A DNA stretch of 42,985 nt from Oligoflexales bacterium (GTDB lineage Bacteria; Myxococcota_A; UBA9042; DTJE01): contig DUVQ01000084.1 in the NCBI GenBank assembly GCA_012840965.1, positions 1-42,985 on the forward strand, read 5' to 3'. The translations under genes and the position numbers were made by a program. Positions 8,612 through 42,985 of the stretch are shown here, piece after piece (the stretch's first letter is position 1; each line of letters starts with the position of its first letter). Under the pieces are notes generated by a model. It made no database searches and had not been told where the DNA came from. It saw nothing but the letters and a program-made list of their open reading frames with translations.

Positions 8612-9542
8612 TATTGAACACTTTGCAGAAATTCTAGTTGATGGCGGCGTGGTGGCCTTTCCCACCGAGACTGTCTATGGCCTTGGTGCTAATGCCAAAA
8701 ACGATGCGGCTGTGGCAAGGATTTTTGAAATCAAGGCACGGCCAAGATTTGACCCCTTAATCGTCCACGTCAGCAGTCTGGATATGGTCAACCAAGTCGC
8801 AGCATCCATCCAGCCAATCCAGCGCAAGCTGATGGAGGCCTTTTGGCCAGGCCCGCTTACAATAATTTTTCCAAAATTATCTGTGATTTCCGACCTGGTA
8901 ACTGCTGGCCTGCCAACAGTTGCGGTCAGAATGCCAAATCATCCTGTGGCCTTGGAACTAATTCGCACGGCAGGCATACCAGTTGCGGCGCCCTCAGCCA
9001 ATCCATTTGGTCGTACAAGCCCAACCACTGCTGCCCACGTGGCGGAATATCTTGGTGACAAGGTCGATGGGATTTTGGATGGAGGTCCATGTGCCGTAGG
9101 CCTGGAATCCACGATTTTGTCGCTGATAGACGGCAAGCCAACAATCCTACGAACAGGCGGCCTTGCTATCGAGGACATCCAGGCGGTAATCGGGCCAGTT
9201 CACATCGCGCCTCCAAACGACGACCTGCCCCAAGCCCCTGGCAGACTTCAACGTCACTACGCGCCTGCGACACCAATGGTCCTGGACCCTAAGAGGGCGA
9301 TTAAACCAGATTCAACGACCGGACTTTTGACATTTACCGGACGCCCAGATGAAGCGGCCTTCAAGGCAGTAGAGGTATTGTCTCGTAGCGGCGACCTGAA
9401 AGAGGCCGCAAGCAGGCTGTTTGCAGCCATCAGGCGCCTAGACGCAATGGGCCTAAGCCTGATCGTGGCAGAACCAGTTCCAGATGAAGGCCTAGGTCGA
9501 GCAATCAATGATCGGCTGCAAAGGGCCTGCAAACGGGGTTGA
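8604..9542 (+). CDS. sua5: threonylcarbamoyl-AMP synthase (Sua5/YciO/YrdC family)
   Basis: Makes threonylcarbamoyl-AMP from threonine, bicarbonate and ATP for the t6A37 modification of tRNAs that read ANN codons. Residues about 1-200 are the YrdC domain: PTETVYGLGANA, KARPRFDPLIVH (the KxR...HPL-type nucleotide pocket), PSANPFGRTSPTTAAHV and VGLESTI. The C-terminal region (about 215-312), starting PQAPGRLQRHYAP, is the Sua5 domain, so this is the long form rather than TsaC. The ATG at 8604 overlaps the lgt end by 8 bp, indicating translational coupling. A G-rich array and repeat copy A begin directly after the stop. Confidence 0.93.
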   Translation: MNNIEHFAEILVDGGVVAFPTETVYGLGANAKNDAAVARIFEIKARPRFDPLIVHVSSLDMVNQVAASIQPIQRKLMEAFWPGPLTIIFPKLSVISDLVTAGLPTVAVRMPNHPVALELIRTAGIPVAAPSANPFGRTSPTTAAHVAEYLGDKVDGILDGGPCAVGLESTILSLIDGKPTILRTGGLAIEDIQAVIGPVHIAPPNDDLPQAPGRLQRHYAPATPMVLDPKRAIKPDSTTGLLTFTGRPDEAAFKAVEVLSRSGDLKEAASRLFAAIRRLDAMGLSLIVAEPVPDEGLGRAINDRLQRACKRG

Positions 9543-9543
9543 T

Positions 9544-9582
9544 GGGGGTGGGGACAGGAGGCAGGGACAGGGGCGGGGTAGG
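9544..9582 (+). repeat. G-rich low-complexity array next to repeat copy A
   Basis: A run of GGGACAGG/GGCAGG-type units starting 2 nt after the Sua5 stop. It has several closely spaced runs of three or more G, so a G-quadruplex is conceivable. It is one of seven such arrays in the window, all G-rich on the plus strand. Confidence 0.75.
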
Positions 9583-9593
9583 AAGATGCTGAC

Positions 9594-9690
9594 CTGCAGG
9601 ATTTGGAGCTAAAGGACGTCGAGAGGGCACCCTGCAACATGGTCCGGGGGCAATCCTGGAGGGCGCTATCGGGAGTTGCCGGGACCCGAC
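9594..9690 (+). repeat. dispersed 97-bp repeat, copy A
   Basis: The core begins with GCAGGATTTGGAGC and ends with GGGACCCGAC. Copies B (40881-40962) and C (42844-42940) match it almost base for base over 82 and 97 bp. Inside the core, 9641-9686 can fold into a hairpin: GGTCC...GGACC, then GGCAA...TTGCC, then TCC...GGA. I see no open reading frame with a start signal in it. All three copies follow the stop codon of a plus-strand gene. Confidence 0.85.
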
Positions 9691-9843
9691 GGTCTTATTG
9701 GCGACTTGAAGGACGCGAAGCGGCCCGGCCGGGCATAAACACCGCCGCCATTCATGGCGGCTAACGCCCGGACGATGTCGCCAATGAGACCAGTCGGGTG
9801 GCAACGGGAGATTTTGGGCCCGGAAGGATGCCCACGGACATGT
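9637..9843. repeat. nested long imperfect palindrome containing copy A
   Basis: Three nested inverted-repeat layers are visible: 9637-9651 with 9830-9843, 9675-9705 with 9777-9805 (about 25 of 31 positions pair), and 9729-9734 with 9766-9771. The centre is a perfect 8-bp stem, GCCGCCAT (9744-9751) with ATGGCGGC (9754-9761). The right arm looks like a diverged inverted copy of the repeat core, giving a doublet resembling REPIN-type elements. It fills most of the 415-bp gap between convergent genes (9543-9957); the rest (9844-9912) is AT-rich with nothing I recognise. Confidence 0.7.
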
Positions 9844-9912
9844 TTTACAACTGTAACGAAGAGATAAAACGCCAAAAAGAACTTACAATCAAAAGCCAGA
9901 ACATACAAATTG

Positions 9913-9950
9913 GCAGGATCTGCAACAGGAACAGGAGGCAGGGACAGGGA
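9913..9950 (+). repeat. seed motif plus G-rich array
   Basis: GCAGGATCTGCAAC, a variant of the seed that opens the 97-bp repeat, runs directly into an AACAGGAGGCAGGGACAGGGA array. It lies 8 bp from the stop of the convergent minus-strand gene, closing the repeat-rich block. Confidence 0.65.
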
Positions 9951-9957
9951 TTTTTGC

Positions 9958-11538
9958 CTAGGGTACAGCCGTCCTCACCAAACGGAAGCCCAAGTTATTG
10001 GAATTCGAGCTAGGAGAAATGGCGGAGCGGCTGGCCGACCGCACAAGGCTAGCAGGACTGTTAAAAGCACCGCCACGATAACAACGTTTAGTGAGCATGT
10101 CATCCGGGTCTGGTCCTAAGGGATCTGTGACGCCGTTCTGATTCCGGTGGTAATAGCTACTATGGAACAAGTCCCACACCCATTCAAAAACGTTACCGTT
10201 CATATCATACAAACCCCACGGATTCGGCAGCAATCGACCTACTAGCTTGGGGCCTTCTGAGTTGTAGTCGTACCAAGCTATCTGTGGTAGGAGTGTTCCT
10301 AATGGATCCTCCTGATTACACAACATTTCCCCATTGTCTCCATAGTAGCTACCTATCCAATAGGCAGTCTTGGTTCCGGCTCTGGCGGCATATTCCCATT
10401 CTGCCTCTGTCGGTAAACGATAACCGTTACAGTCAAGACCCTTAAACACCACTGTGCACTTCTGCGCCCCGGCACCCAAAGTACCTTCACAATCCGTTAT
10501 TTCGTAACACTCATCGTAACCTTCGTCCAAAGAAAGCAGGTTCGCATAATGAAGCACATCAAACCAATTGATATTTGTCACAGGACAGTCATCGCATCCA
10601 TCAGCAGCAGACGGATGTTGATTATTGGCAATCAAAGCGGCCCACTCTTTCTGAGTAACTTCAGTCTGTTTCATATGAAATGGACGCGAAATCGTGACTG
10701 GGTGGACTGGCTTCTCACCACTTCCACTCACGGGACATGTATCTTCTTCGGGAGCTCCCATTTCAAAGGTACCTGATGGGATCAAGCACCAGTCGTTAAA
10801 GCAGGAACGTGGCACTACAGAGTCATCGACCTTTGTGCAGCGATTGTCATGGCGATAGTAGCCTTCATCACATAAACAAAAGGCTTTATTGTCGCTGGTA
10901 ACGACGCAGGAACCATTACTGCCGCAGTCAACATCCGTACAAGGAGATTGACCACCACCACCACCTTCAACTTTCACACACTGTGCGCCATTGGACTGAT
11001 AGCCAGGGCGGCAAAGGCAGACAGGGGTGTTGTCATAAGCGATTGTGCAGACACCATCGCCGGCGCATTCGACATCCTTACAAGGGTTCCCGCCGGTCGG
11101 AGCTTCCTTGCAGACGCCACCTTGCAAAACAAATCCATCGTCACAGATGCAGAAGGGGCCATCGTTGCCTAGTCCACAACGACCATGCTCACCACAGTCG
11201 AAATTATCGCAGGGATTTGGCACGGCAACACATTTCTGGCCATCACGCTGGTAGCCCTCGTTACAAACACAGACGGGCTCATAAGAGGGAGTCAGCATGC
11301 AAACACCATGGCCGCTGCAGGTGACATCTTTGCAAGGGTTGTCCGCCGAGAATTCGGCGCACACACCGTCTTGCAAAACAAAACCAAAATCGCAGATGCA
11401 GATTGGGCCTTCAGCGCCAACTGCACACCTACCGTGACTACCACAGTCAACACCAACGCAGTAGTTCTCGAATTCGTCGCCACTATCACCACAGGCGATG
11501 AACAGCAGTGCGACTAGGGGCAAAGCTTTCTTGAACAT
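9958..11538 (-). CDS. lipoprotein with five EGF-like modules and an FGE-sulfatase (SUMF1-type) domain
   Basis: A 526-residue putative surface lipoprotein. The signal sequence ends in the lipobox FIAC (Cys16). Five EGF-like modules of six cysteines follow (about 27-60, 69-103, 110-143, 153-187, 200-234), each with the G-x-C-x-C-x-x-G-F/Y pattern. Residues about 253-523 are an FGE-sulfatase domain: IPSGTFEMGA, EVTQKEWAA, YRLPTEAEWEYAARAG, NPWGLYDMNGNVFEWVWD, YRGGAFN and NNLGFRLV. The two active-site cysteines of true formylglycine-generating enzymes, expected between the RGG and GFR motifs, are absent, so it is unlikely to make formylglycine; binding or another oxidase-like role is possible. 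The ATG at 11538 has GGAGGTG closely upstream. Apparently a single-gene unit. Confidence 0.88.
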   Translation of the reverse strand: MFKKALPLVALLFIACGDSGDEFENYCVGVDCGSHGRCAVGAEGPICICDFGFVLQDGVCAEFSADNPCKDVTCSGHGVCMLTPSYEPVCVCNEGYQRDGQKCVAVPNPCDNFDCGEHGRCGLGNDGPFCICDDGFVLQGGVCKEAPTGGNPCKDVECAGDGVCTIAYDNTPVCLCRPGYQSNGAQCVKVEGGGGGQSPCTDVDCGSNGSCVVTSDNKAFCLCDEGYYRHDNRCTKVDDSVVPRSCFNDWCLIPSGTFEMGAPEEDTCPVSGSGEKPVHPVTISRPFHMKQTEVTQKEWAALIANNQHPSAADGCDDCPVTNINWFDVLHYANLLSLDEGYDECYEITDCEGTLGAGAQKCTVVFKGLDCNGYRLPTEAEWEYAARAGTKTAYWIGSYYGDNGEMLCNQEDPLGTLLPQIAWYDYNSEGPKLVGRLLPNPWGLYDMNGNVFEWVWDLFHSSYYHRNQNGVTDPLGPDPDDMLTKRCYRGGAFNSPASLVRSASRSAISPSSNSNNLGFRLVRTAVP

Positions 11539-11669: not shown

Positions 11670-11744
11670 GGGTTGGGGGGTGGGGCTGGGAGCAGGGACA
11701 GGGCAGGAACAGGATCTGTAGCAGGGTCAGGAGCAGGGACGGGA
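11670..11744 (+). repeat. G-rich array with a seed motif
   Basis: A plus-strand G-rich array of GGGACAGG, GGAACAGG and GGGACGGG units with ACAGGATCTGTAGC (11709-11722) in the middle. It occupies the 3' side of the thioredoxin gene, upstream of the EGF lipoprotein gene, in a 225-bp gap (11539-11763). No full 97-bp core follows it here. Confidence 0.7.
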
Positions 11745-14563: not shown

Positions 14564-17170
14564 ATGTCTTCGATTCAAAATCATCCATATAAAAACTTCT
14601 TGCAGCGGTTGAAAACCCCTTCTAGGTATGTGGGCGGTGAATTTGGGTCGGCAAAGCCGCCTAAAAACCCTGAGGCTTCAGTGGTTTTAGCCTTTCCAGA
14701 CGTTTATGAAGTTGGAATGTCCCACCTTGGCACCCAGATTCTTTATCGATTACTGGCAGATACACCTGGCATCCAAGTTGAGCGCTGCTTTTCGCCGTGG
14801 CCAGATCTTGAGGAGGCATTGCGCCAACATAAGCTTCCATTGGTATCACTGGAGTCTCATTCCTCGCTGTCGCAATTCGATGTGATTGGCGTCTCCATGC
14901 AGCATGAGCTGTGCTTTACCAACATCTTGAATTTGCTGGATTTATCTGGAGTACCACTGCGAGCTAAAGACCGTTTGGACAACCATCCAATCGTGCTTGG
15001 TGGTGGCCCAACCGCCCATCATCCAGAGCCTGTAGCCCCATTTTTTGATGCCATTTTTATCGGGGAAGCCGAAGAAACACTTCCAGGCGTGGTACTAGAA
15101 ATTGGCAGGCGTAAAAAGGCTGGCAGGCAAGCGGTGCTTCAATACCTGGCCACGGTCCCAGGATTTTACGTTCCAAGTTTGTACAAGGCGGTGCCAAGTG
15201 GCGATTTTGTCATCTCAAAACCGCTTAACGACAAGGCGCCTGAAACTGTGCAAAGGGTTTACCTGTCTGACCTTAACGCCTTTCCCACCCCAAGTAAAAC
15301 GATAGTCCCTTGGAATCGTGCTGTTTTTGACCGAGTTTCCATGGAAATAGCGCGTGGATGTACTGAAGGCTGCCGTTTTTGTGAGGCTGGCTACACCTAT
15401 CGCCCGTTAAGGGACAGGTCACCTGAGGCCATCTTTCAAACAACGCTTGAGGCCATTGACTATGGTGGATTTGAGGAGGTTTCGCTGGGCTCGTTGTCTC
15501 CAGCTGATTATCCTGCCCTTGGTCCTTTGGTGCATGCTCTATCAGGCACTTTGACCCCAAAGCATGTGACCCTTTCAGTTTCATCACTTCGCGCCTATGG
15601 TTTACAGGATCAGACGCTGAAGGACCTGAAAGCCGTAAGAATGACTGGTCTTACAATGGCACCAGAGGCAGGTTCGCAGCGCTTAAGGGATGTCATCAAC
15701 AAAAACATTTCTGAAGCAGATTTACTGGAATCAGCCCGCCGAGCGTTTTCTAATGGTTGGCAACGTTTAAAGCTTTACTTCATGATTGGCTTACCAACTG
15801 AAACAGATGATGACGTTGATGCCATCGTCCAGCTAGCCGGCGCCGTCCAAAAGCTTGGCAGAGGTATCGGCAGGGCCACAGTAAACGTCTCGGTTGGTGT
15901 ATTTGTGCCAAGGCCACACACGCCTTTTCAGTGGGAAGGCATGGCCTCCCCAGATGAAATTGCGCGAAAAATCGACAGGCTGAAGGACGCGGCCAGGCAG
16001 GCCAGGATAAATCTGAAGTATTCAGATGGAGTTATAGCTCGCCTAGAGTGTGCAATGGCCAGAGGTGACCACCGTATGGCCGACGTCATTGAGCGGGCAT
16101 ATCACCTTGGATGCCGCTTTGATGATTGGTCCGAACATAACAGAGCCGATCTGTGGCAGCAGGCATTTGCAGAAGTTGGGATAGACTGGGACAAGCTAAC
16201 TGGGCAAATTTCCAAAGAGACTTTGCTTCCCTGGGAAATCGTGGATGTTGGTGTAAAGAAGGCTTTTTTGGCTAAAGAACGGGCTTTGGCCATGGATGGC
16301 AAAACCACGCACCCATGTGAAAAACCGCAAGAAATTAACGGTGTAAGACCTGGCCCAGCCCAGATTGAAGCGGCCAAAACCGTGGTTTGCCATGGCTGCG
16401 GGGTGGGATGTGTTCCAAACAAGATTGCGCTTGCTAGGTCGCAGGTTGTTAAGGGGGCAAGGTCTTTGCCTGTGTTTGTTCAAGACCAGGAGGACAGGGG
16501 CGGGTACAGGGACAGGGACGGGGACAGGGACGGGGCGGTTCACGATTCAGAACCACAACAATTTGAGCTTTGGCATCTGATTTTTTCCAAAACTGGGCCT
16601 GCATCGTTTTTATCTCAAACAGACTTGGTCAAACACTTACCAAGAATCTTGCGTAGGTCCGGGTTAACACTGAAGATGTCTGGTGGTTTTCATCCCCTGC
16701 CAAAAATCACCTACCGCGAGCCTATGCCGGTTGGCTATCAAAGCATTGGCGAGTGGCTTGACGTCTGGCTTGCACCCCATGACGTGGCCCTGGATGCAAA
16801 AGGGCTTATCGACCGGCTAAACGATGCTAGCGTAGAGGGCATCCAGTTTTTGTTTGCCAAACAGGTAGAAGGCAAGCGCCAACAACCAAAGGAGATTAAA
16901 TACGCCTTTGAAAGCCTGCATGACCTAGAAACCACCCAAAAGTTGCTGCAGCCGCTGCTGCTTGAACTGTTACCTGAACCAAGCACCTGTCCAATCCTAG
17001 CTGACTGGCCAAACAAGTTAGCAAGCAAGCCCATTGTGCTGGTGTGGCCACGAGGTGCAAACCTGCCTAATCGCCCTCATGAGACCTTGTCTTTGGCACT
17101 GGATCACCCGTTTTTGCCAAGCGATCTTGTAAGACTGTACGACGATCCCCGCGGTCTATTTACAATTTAG
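14564..17170 (+). CDS. B12-binding/radical SAM protein fused to a DUF2344 domain
   Basis: An 868-residue fusion of two modules often encoded next to each other (TIGR03960 and TIGR03936 types). Residues about 35-200 resemble a cobalamin-binding fold (VLGGGPTAHHPEPVAPF). Residues 255-500 are a radical SAM domain with the Fe-S triad Cys266, Cys270 and Cys273 in ARGCTEGCRFCEAGYTYRP. A Cys-rich knuckle CHGCGVGC (609-616) precedes a low-complexity linker (about 643-658). Residues about 665-868 are DUF2344 (LVKHLPRILRRSGL, MSGGFHPLPKI). The substrate is unknown; the family has been linked to RNA or ribosome-related functions by context only. The linker is encoded by the same G-rich repeat found between genes in this window. 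Starts 27 bp after the exonuclease. Confidence 0.9.
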   Translation: MSSIQNHPYKNFLQRLKTPSRYVGGEFGSAKPPKNPEASVVLAFPDVYEVGMSHLGTQILYRLLADTPGIQVERCFSPWPDLEEALRQHKLPLVSLESHSSLSQFDVIGVSMQHELCFTNILNLLDLSGVPLRAKDRLDNHPIVLGGGPTAHHPEPVAPFFDAIFIGEAEETLPGVVLEIGRRKKAGRQAVLQYLATVPGFYVPSLYKAVPSGDFVISKPLNDKAPETVQRVYLSDLNAFPTPSKTIVPWNRAVFDRVSMEIARGCTEGCRFCEAGYTYRPLRDRSPEAIFQTTLEAIDYGGFEEVSLGSLSPADYPALGPLVHALSGTLTPKHVTLSVSSLRAYGLQDQTLKDLKAVRMTGLTMAPEAGSQRLRDVINKNISEADLLESARRAFSNGWQRLKLYFMIGLPTETDDDVDAIVQLAGAVQKLGRGIGRATVNVSVGVFVPRPHTPFQWEGMASPDEIARKIDRLKDAARQARINLKYSDGVIARLECAMARGDHRMADVIERAYHLGCRFDDWSEHNRADLWQQAFAEVGIDWDKLTGQISKETLLPWEIVDVGVKKAFLAKERALAMDGKTTHPCEKPQEINGVRPGPAQIEAAKTVVCHGCGVGCVPNKIALARSQVVKGARSLPVFVQDQEDRGGYRDRDGDRDGAVHDSEPQQFELWHLIFSKTGPASFLSQTDLVKHLPRILRRSGLTLKMSGGFHPLPKITYREPMPVGYQSIGEWLDVWLAPHDVALDAKGLIDRLNDASVEGIQFLFAKQVEGKRQQPKEIKYAFESLHDLETTQKLLQPLLLELLPEPSTCPILADWPNKLASKPIVLVWPRGANLPNRPHETLSLALDHPFLPSDLVRLYDDPRGLFTI
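16488..16538 (+). repeat. in-frame G-rich hexamer array inside the radical SAM/DUF2344 gene
   Basis: Alternating GGGACA and GGGACG units, about eight in 50 bp, encode an Arg/Asp/Gly-rich peptide (RDRDGDRDG). It lies in the linker between the Cys knuckle and the DUF2344 domain, so both domains stay intact. Confidence 0.85.
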
Positions 17171-24080: not shown

Positions 24081-25439
24081 CTATTCTTCAACCGCCAGAA
24101 CGTTGAACTCAGTACGACGGTTTTCAGCACGTCCCTTAGAGGTGCGGTTGTCAGCGACAGGCCTGTCTGGACCGTATCCAACAGCCTCCAGACGATCCGC
24201 CGCGACGCCCTTGCTGATCAGGTAGTCGCGAACTGACTCAGCGCGAGCCTGGGACAGTGTTTTGTTCTTTTCATACTTACCGGTACTGTCAGTATGGCCT
24301 TCAATGCGCAGACGCAGGTCCGTGAACTCCATCAGGACTTTCACCGCTTCGTCCAGCACCTTGTTGGAAGATGCGTGGATCTTGGCGCTGCCAGTGGCGA
24401 ACTTGATGCCCTTGATTGCACCGGTAAATTTCTTGGCCTTTTCAGGCAGACAACCGTCGTGGGATTTCAGACCACGAATCTCGGGGCATTTATCGTCGAT
24501 GTCTGGCACACCATCGCCATCGCTGTCAGGACAGCCCTTGAGGGACTTCGGACCAGCAACGTCTGGGCAGCGGTCATCGATATCTGGCACACCATCGCCA
24601 TCACTGTCAGGACAACCCTTGAGGGCTGGGAGACCGGCGGCGTCAGGGCAGCGGTCGTCCTTGTCCGGAATACCGTCGCCATCACGGTCGGGGCACCCCT
24701 TAGTCGCACGAGGCCCCTTTTCGTCCGGACATTCGTCCTCAGAATCGATGATCCCATCGCCATCCCTATCAGGGCAGCCCTTGGTTTCGATAGTACCTGG
24801 CTCATCAGGACATGCGTCTTCTTCGTCTGGCACGCCATCGCCATCACGGTCAGCGGGCTTAGGCTCAGGCTTCTCAACTCCCCACACAAAGAAGTCAAGA
24901 CCAAGAAGTATTTCAATGATGTGAGCACCACCCTTGGTCAAACCGTCAGTAATGGCGTCACGAATATCCAGGCGCAGGGCCATCCAAGGGGTAACCAGCC
25001 CGCGAACACCAATTCCGATCAAGCCCCTGGGGTCCGTGTCCTTGCCCAGATCTGCGCTAAAGTTGGTGTAGCCACCAAACCCAGCAGAAACAAAGGGCGA
25101 CCAATTGCTCTTGAGGAAGTGATAAAGCACCTGAATGTCGTATGACATTGCATGGTTGGTTGCCGTAGCGCTCTTGATTGGCACATAGGCGAATCCAGCT
25201 TCGATTGCCAACTGGGGCAAGATGTGGCCACCCACCCTGAAACCAACGTCGCCGTTGAAACGAGTTGTGGGCAGACCATTTTCCTTGTGGCCAATGTCCC
25301 AGTCATTAGTCCTGATGTAGGCTCCACCATACACGCCCACATAAACTGCAGGACTTGGAAACTCCGCCGCGGCAGGTGATGGAGCCATGACGGCAGCCAC
25401 CATCAAAACGCCGAGCACTCCACTGAGCAAGCGTTTCAT
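24081..25439 (-). CDS. OmpA-family outer-membrane protein with thrombospondin type 3 repeats
   Basis: A 452-residue outer-membrane protein. Signal peptide 1-25 (ending AAA); residues 26-187 look like an eight-stranded beta-barrel with alternating aromatic strands; a short Pro-rich hinge follows. Residues 197-330 hold five TSP3 calcium-binding repeats of the D-x-D-G-D-G-x-x-D-x-x-D type, each closed by a cysteine pair. Residues about 335-450 are the OmpA peptidoglycan-binding domain, with GHTDSTG (Asp384) and LSQARA (Arg399) as the diaminopimelate-binding pair. It should tether the outer membrane to peptidoglycan, with calcium stiffening the linker. The ATG has CAGGAGG upstream, with a good promoter at 25525-25553 and a terminator after the stop, so it is a monocistronic unit, probably highly expressed. 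Confidence 0.94.
   Translation of the reverse strand: MKRLLSGVLGVLMVAAVMAPSPAAAEFPSPAVYVGVYGGAYIRTNDWDIGHKENGLPTTRFNGDVGFRVGGHILPQLAIEAGFAYVPIKSATATNHAMSYDIQVLYHFLKSNWSPFVSAGFGGYTNFSADLGKDTDPRGLIGIGVRGLVTPWMALRLDIRDAITDGLTKGGAHIIEILLGLDFFVWGVEKPEPKPADRDGDGVPDEEDACPDEPGTIETKGCPDRDGDGIIDSEDECPDEKGPRATKGCPDRDGDGIPDKDDRCPDAAGLPALKGCPDSDGDGVPDIDDRCPDVAGPKSLKGCPDSDGDGVPDIDDKCPEIRGLKSHDGCLPEKAKKFTGAIKGIKFATGSAKIHASSNKVLDEAVKVLMEFTDLRLRIEGHTDSTGKYEKNKTLSQARAESVRDYLISKGVAADRLEAVGYGPDRPVADNRTSKGRAENRRTEFNVLAVEE
24450..24851. repeat. tandem DNA repeats encoding five TSP3 modules
   Basis: Units of about 75-80 bp inside the OmpA-like gene encode the calcium-binding modules. The two near 24490-24640 are the most alike at DNA level (shared stretches such as CTGGCACACCATCGCCATC), suggesting recent duplication or gene conversion. 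Confidence 0.8.
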
Positions 25440-40849: not shown

Positions 40850-40880
40850 AGGCAGGAGGCAGGACGACGTTTGTGCTGAG

Positions 40881-40962
40881 CTGCAGGATTTGAAGCTAAA
40901 AGAAGGTCGAGAGGGCACCCAGCAACATGGTCCGGGGGCAATCCTGGAGGGCGCTATCGGGA
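40881..40962 (+). repeat. dispersed repeat, copy B (3'-truncated)
   Basis: Matches the first 82 bp of copy A with about six differences, then departs after CGCTATCGGGA, so it keeps only the left arm of the core hairpin. It starts 31 bp after the stop of the 651-aa gene, behind a short G-rich stretch (40850-40867). Confidence 0.85.
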
Positions 40963-40980
40963 ATCAAAACGTGCTAATTA

Positions 40981-41010
40981 GCAGGATCTGTAGCGGGCAC
41001 AGGGGCGGGG
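40981..41010 (+). repeat. seed motif plus short G-rich array
   Basis: GCAGGATCTGTAGC (40981-40994) followed by GGGCACAGGGGCGGGG, 18 bp after copy B. The remaining 92 bp to the next gene hold nothing I recognise besides its ribosome site. Confidence 0.65.
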
Positions 41011-42790: not shown

Positions 42791-42829
42791 GCAGGAACAG
42801 GAACAGGGGCAGGAGCGGGGACAGGGAGG
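42791..42829 (+). repeat. G-rich low-complexity array next to copy C
   Basis: GGAACAGG, GGGGCAGG and GGGGACAGG units directly after the mepA stop, followed 15 bp later by repeat copy C, in the same arrangement as after sua5. Confidence 0.75.
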
Positions 42830-42843
42830 CGATTATGCTATTT

Positions 42844-42940
42844 AGCAGGATTTGGGGCTAAAAGGACGTCGAGAGGGCACCCTGCAACATGGTCCGGGGG
42901 CAATCCTGGAGGGCGCTATCGGGAGTTGCCGGGACCCGAC
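42844..42940 (+). repeat. dispersed 97-bp repeat, copy C
   Basis: Matches copy A over the whole core with about four differences, including the 46-nt hairpin (42891-42936). After CCCGAC it differs from copy A: GTCGCC follows at once, as if the inner part of the palindrome were absent. The window ends 45 bp later, so the downstream context is unknown. Confidence 0.88.
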
Positions 42941-42985
42941 GTCGCCCCCAAAATCACCGTCTAGTCGATGACGAAGGCTGGCGAG

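Follow-up and report, generated by a model that had tools for sequence, protein, structure and literature searches.

A hairpin-forming interspersed repeat in the CAGGNN arrays of an Oligoflexales genome

Known repeat systems and the element of this genome

REPs and REPINs, the repeats that go with RAYT, are described in the sections cited here as dispersed, extragenic, non-coding hairpins of inverted arms, with smaller forms that look like remnants (PMC3116915, PMC3733652), and a GTAG or CGTC tag lies beside the palindrome (PMC3733652). The BOX elements of pneumococcus range from 67 to 637 bp (PMC3049150), and Xanthomonas and Nostoc have G-rich intergenic heptamer arrays, (GGGANTN)n (PMC4692102). 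For gene-less bacterial repeats with no recognised transposase, such as BOX and the CGTC-tagged REPs, the mode of spread is treated as an open question in the parts of the sources consulted (PMC3049150, PMC3733652).

The window is a stretch of 42,985 nucleotides from an Oligoflexales bacterium whose genome is represented by one assembly (3,089,561 bases in 218 contigs, 95.7% complete). A repeat within it, copy A, is very probably the long form of a ca. 340–350-bp non-coding interspersed repeat that can form, on its + strand, a single long and imperfect hairpin whose internal loops are conserved, and that lies mostly in one orientation inside G-rich CAGGNN arrays. As a structured interspersed repeat without genes, the element is of an ordinary kind; what is unusual is its setting, with oriented hexamer arrays, graded deletion forms and a nested palindrome. 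It offers a natural experiment: a single genome holds at least 53 copies, the deletion forms are graded, one form has a nested insert, and the array context is clear.

The element shares with the REPs and REPINs of the cited sections its dispersal in extragenic regions, its non-coding hairpin of inverted arms and its remnant-like smaller forms. It differs in unit length, in arms that are not short palindromes, in the lack of matches to the Y1 domain (0 found) and in the hexamer arrays around it; its smaller forms have lost internal sequence, and 9 of the copies are of the short form. The likeness to BOX, by description and not by sequence, lies in a modular build, variable size, a predicted RNA stem-loop and no clear mover (PMC3049150, in part), but no tandem boxB-like modules were seen here. 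The arrays resemble (GGGANTN)n in being many, short, G-rich, G-quadruplex-capable and intergenic and in having variable positions; they differ in their period of 6, in the CAGGNN unit and in having a structured element within them, which is absent from the passages of PMC4692102 used for the comparison.

No element match was found in plasmids and phages, and exact patterns – one of 25 bases in genome contigs, two in viral contigs – gave no match, such patterns being liable to miss diverged relatives. In 88 related genomes, including one congener, neither a DNA search nor a model scan with stricter filters (best 19 candidates per genome) gave a convincing relative. One DNA match, in genome G047 (39 bases, E 2.7e-5), was judged to be due to chance: the model match there (11.4 bits, E 0.017) involved other columns and the other strand, and the candidate was absent from the model scan. 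No description of this element was found in the titles and abstract openings of the open-access literature.

Fold, copies and forms

The sequence-only reading had described 9637–9843 as a nested palindrome of ca. 207 bp, and the folds bear this out. Folded as RNA, the region forms one long nested hairpin of −119.1 kcal/mol, compared to −83.6 ± 4.7 in shuffled sequences (z −7.51); folded as DNA, it has a z of −8.45, and neither fold was equalled in any of 200 shuffles. The two sides pair in several blocks, as had been noticed, including one of 15 nt (93% complementary) that bounds the apical part and one of 11 nt (9643–9653/9814–9824, 82% complementary), and the perfect 8-bp central hairpin is present. 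Aligned in inverted sense, the arms are identical in 53 of 73 columns with a score of 28.5, far above that of 500 letter shuffles (mean −5.1, maximum 4.5). These limits enclose the folded core and are too narrow for the full unit, which runs from ca. 9584 to 9924 (Table 1). Model R1, which was built with copy A included, matches it at 9584–9899 with 329.6 bits; the extension to 9924 was read by eye. The right arm, which had been read as a diverged inverted copy of the core, was not seen as a repeated unit by itself: among 45 distinct right ends, 25 have the left (5’) core in the same locus, and many of the loci of the other 20 begin at a contig end.

Table 1. Positions of the element, its parts and the CAGG arrays in the window
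Feature	Position	Strand	Remarks
G-rich degenerate CAGGNN array, left of copy A	9543–9583	+	repeat family D6
Copy A, long form of the element	9584–9924	+	limits approximate, ends merge into arrays
Long nested hairpin	9637–9843	+	fold and inverted-arm alignment
Apical part, bounded by 9691–9705/9777–9791	9691–9791	+	short form lacks about 9682–9790
Perfect 8-bp apical hairpin (9744–9751/9754–9761)	9744–9761	+	inverted-repeat listing
CAGG array, right of copy A	9925–9950	+	
CAGG array with hexamer stretch like the element’s right end, no element	11674–11744	+	
CAGG-type array without element	16492–16538	+	
Minimal form, left core joined at 40960–40962 (GGA) to 3’ tail	40871–40997	+	
CAGG array, left of third copy	42791–42826	+	
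Inserted form, cut by contig end; second palindrome from 42944	42833–42985	+	

There are many dispersed further copies. As a query against the genome, 9637–9843 gave at least 41 matches and the copy near 40.9 kb at least 47, with 40 candidates scored in each search. Sequence comparison distinguished at least 53 copies, all with the exact 5’ core motif, a count that leaves out copies without that exact motif, copies starting inside a contig end, loci of other genomes, and locus L074. They comprise 29 long-type copies (some cut by a contig end and so partly readable), 9 short, 9 inserted, 2 minimal, 2 micro and 2 truncated copies. The part from GAGAGGGCACCC to AACGAAGAG is the most conserved. 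Together with the fold and the arm similarity, these copies support a non-coding, hairpin-forming, probably non-autonomous dispersed repeat.

In the short form, GTTGCC runs directly into GACAGTCGG, or into TACAGTCGG instead in two copies, and the joint has at most one shared base. The minimal form is found in the window, where the interior and the right arm have been lost, and at L058; the joints differ (GGA and GGAGT), which suggests two separate deletions. In the micro form (L169, L293), the two GGTCCGG stretches are joined. Locus L019 has a second, 3’-truncated copy just after the first, and another truncated copy is at L174. The window’s other copies are thus a deletion derivative and an inserted form of the long unit, not the REP singlets B and C that were thought to stand beside a doublet A. 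The suggestion that copy C, for which no coordinates were given, had its interior removed is right if C is 40871–40997; the copy at 42833–42985 has lost nothing visible.

In the inserted form there is an additional palindrome of 184 bp, each end of which is GCCCCCAAAATCACC. In the window, the extra palindrome follows GACGTC and is then cut by the contig end; contig C192 has the inserted form whole, followed by a normal right half. The composite of element and nested palindrome at L104 (1–380) folds with a z of −10.6. Relatives of the 184-bp palindrome lie outside the element on contig C23 (88% identical) and, over part of its length, on C177 and C164 (82%). It is a member of another family of dispersed palindromes, those with GCCCCCAAAATCACC ends, seen both inside the element (L104 35–218) and free of it (C23:11777–11972).

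The CAGGNN arrays

Most copies lie between arrays on the same strand. At least three CAGG on the element strand were found within 95 nt outside the element in 40 of 50 left flanks and 37 of 45 right flanks, leaving 10 and 8 below this number, and at least three CCTG were found in none; random stretches of the window reached the threshold in 65 and 31 of 2000. Locus L009 has no array on its left side. The spacing from CAGG to CAGG is most often 6 bases (267 pairs). The hexamer register at the element ends goes back for the most part to junctions that the copies share, so it adds no independent evidence, and 9 of 45 right ends have no anchor. On the element strand, 33 of 50 left and 14 of 45 right flanks contain canonical G-quadruplex motifs, and no flank has one on the other strand, compared to 14 and 0 of 2000 random 140-nt stretches, flank lengths differing somewhat from these. 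Relative to genes, as called crudely from ORFs, the copies have mixed orientations.

The arrays are not confined to the element. Four-unit CAGGNN matches number 306 + 294 in the genome, and the pattern read backwards gives 22 + 40. Among the matches listed (C3 to C40) there are 27 arrays, 9 of them at a known copy; seven of the other 18 were read and have no adjacent copy, though one (L174) has a truncated copy ca. 0.9 kb away, and the remaining 11 were judged solely from the best-match lists of the element searches. The right-end motif occurs in 31 places, and of the 19 inspected, 18 follow an element tail and one, at 11709 in the window, does not. Array matches thus number in the hundreds genome-wide, many with no element nearby, and are capable of forming G-quadruplexes.

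Telomere-targeted retroelements, which colonise telomeric repeats, offer an analogy for an element that colonises arrays. A two-part system of this sort is conceivable here but unlikely: the CAGGNN arrays would serve specifically as platforms for landing or recombination, and an element without genes, folded in a strand-specific way, would colonise them in one orientation and take up further palindromes as apical modules. If the arrays were such a platform, simple sequence repeats would act as dispersal agents for structured elements.

How the element may have spread

The copies appear, from their sequences, to recombine with each other, as the forms and the sequence variants are found in many combinations. 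At CACCC[T/A]GC, T and A occur in 23 and 6 of the long copies, 5 and 4 of the short, 5 and 4 of the inserted, and 1 and 1 of the minimal; the 2 micro and 2 truncated copies have T only. Two types of tail were distinguished in the 23 copies in which it is readable: 12 and 1 in long copies, 6 and 2 in short, and 1 and 1 in micro, or, by the T/A variant, 16 and 2 in copies with T and 3 and 2 in copies with A. The complex tail variant is unlikely to have come from recurrent mutation, and so the simplest reading, small as the counts are, is that the copies recombine or undergo gene conversion. Some copies (L289/L292) also have flank variants in common outside the element.

The preferred explanation, with a probability of roughly 0.4 for identity and mechanism together, is that the repeat is structured but non-autonomous and owes its spread and homogenisation to recombination through the arrays. 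Copies, and likewise similar arrays of the same orientation, would recombine or undergo gene conversion with one another, and the DNA would be likely to break, or forks to stall, at hairpins and possible G-quadruplexes. During replication the hairpin would be unstable, with slippage between short direct repeats producing the smaller forms; its apical part may tolerate a second palindrome, and some of the changed forms (short, inserted) would then have spread further.

Several observations favour recombination: the oriented arrays on both sides, the arrays without a copy, the variants mixed among forms, and the flank variants shared beyond the element. The ends are a further point: terminal inverted repeats as in a MITE were not seen at the element ends, read by eye, and there is a direct CAGGAT at both instead, whereas inverted ends are present in the nested palindrome of 184 bp. 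A search of the genome for Y1_Tnp (PF01797), the one transposase family covered, gave 0 matches; the same search was positive in 5 of 14 control genomes. The deletion joints at shared GGA, GGAGT and GGTCCGG argue for slippage, but this explains the short form poorly, given its joint. Other observations count against recombination: homologous recombination would have short and degenerate arrays to act on, L009 and the flanks poor in CAGG do not conform, and a left leader of ca. 24 nt, common to most copies, fits a unit with defined ends. The T in both micro copies counts against exchange. All of the copies compared come from one genome assembly. The one congener has no four-unit CAGG array at its Sua5 locus, and no element was seen there by eye; a different gene follows Sua5, so the locus is not an empty site.

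A doubtful but serious alternative is an enzyme, still encoded or since lost, that would recognise the conserved folded core, or else the ends, and place the element one way into CAGGNN arrays, as a transposase or a site-specific recombinase might. It would account for the single orientation in the arrays, the shared left leader and tail, the core that is far more conserved than the ends, and the fact that altered forms have spread (short and inserted, 9 copies each). The missing Y1_Tnp match and terminal inverted repeats speak against such an enzyme, as do the mixing of variants among forms and the sharing of flank variants beyond the element.

Folding of the + strand likely matters, but it is improbable that selection acts on the element as a functional RNA, or as a regulator at the RNA level, with dispersal secondary. 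On a structure derived from one copy, 97.4% of cells pair in 23 long copies, and the internal loops are invariant. The covariation score is 0.053 compared to 0.037 in shuffles, and 16 cells compared to 4.5 are changed on both sides, neither reached in any of 500 shuffles, which ignore the relatedness of the copies. G-U occurs at 8 pairs, one of which never varies, and A-C at 1 (copy A left out). However, taking the structure from one of the sequences favours covariation and biases the G-U count; only 4 pairs are changed on both sides (reached by 168 of 500 shuffles), three of them in one small hairpin, and the 12 further pair types are reached by 490 of 500. Paired insertions in the inner helix of copy A could be yielded either by compensation or by template switching between the arms. 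The mixed orientation to genes also argues against this reading, and no sigma-70-type promoter-like site was found in 9540–9980. Rfam covariance models gave 0 matches at gathering in the whole window; three weak matches in L009 900–1400 (up to E 10, best E 2.5) were all on the opposite strand and were rejected. One terminator-like match, compared to 0.3 expected, lies on the minus strand.

That a reverse transcriptase, whether retron-like or from a diversity-generating retroelement (DGR), copies the element via RNA is very improbable. In 1997 Lampson and Rice reportedly proposed msDNA-like dispersed repeats for Nannocystis exedens, which, going by the title, would likewise be dispersed structured repeats in one bacterial genome, and the genome studied here has one RVT_1 gene. 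This sole reverse transcriptase, on contig C114, looks like a DGR enzyme with an Avd neighbour, adenines are not preferentially substituted in the tail, head or core of the element, and no element match above noise adjoins the gene (best 4.7 bits); DGR or retron copying was therefore rejected.

The proposal of the sequence-only reading that the element is a REPIN moved by a RAYT transposase is hardly credible: the hairpin of two inverted arms, the intergenic setting and the many copies agree with it, but no RAYT-type gene was found in the Y1_Tnp search, the smaller copies are internal deletions, and none of 8 inverted-repeat pairs in 9560–9940 has both arms inside 9637–9705 or inside 9777–9843, so neither arm is a REP palindrome in its own right and the element is not filed as a REPIN. 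Of the three outcomes that the sequence-only reading had named as refuting it, one came about, in that no RAYT-like gene was found, and the other two did not. The element does resemble a REPIN in working as a hairpin-forming, dispersed and probably non-autonomous unit.

Other repeats were observed in the course of this analysis. The retroelement on C114 (L279 950–2480) consists of Avd (NF033474, 85.3 bits, cut-off 80) and the reverse transcriptase, and has a template-like region at L279 2231–2480 that is 87% identical over 129 nt to L279 111–239. Sequences at L009 608–738 (72%) and L066 465–599 (77%) resemble this region and are possible remote DGR targets; both loci also hold the element. In the window, 24449–24853 is made up of coding-type tandem repeats of 81 bp, and both strands of the region have long ORFs.
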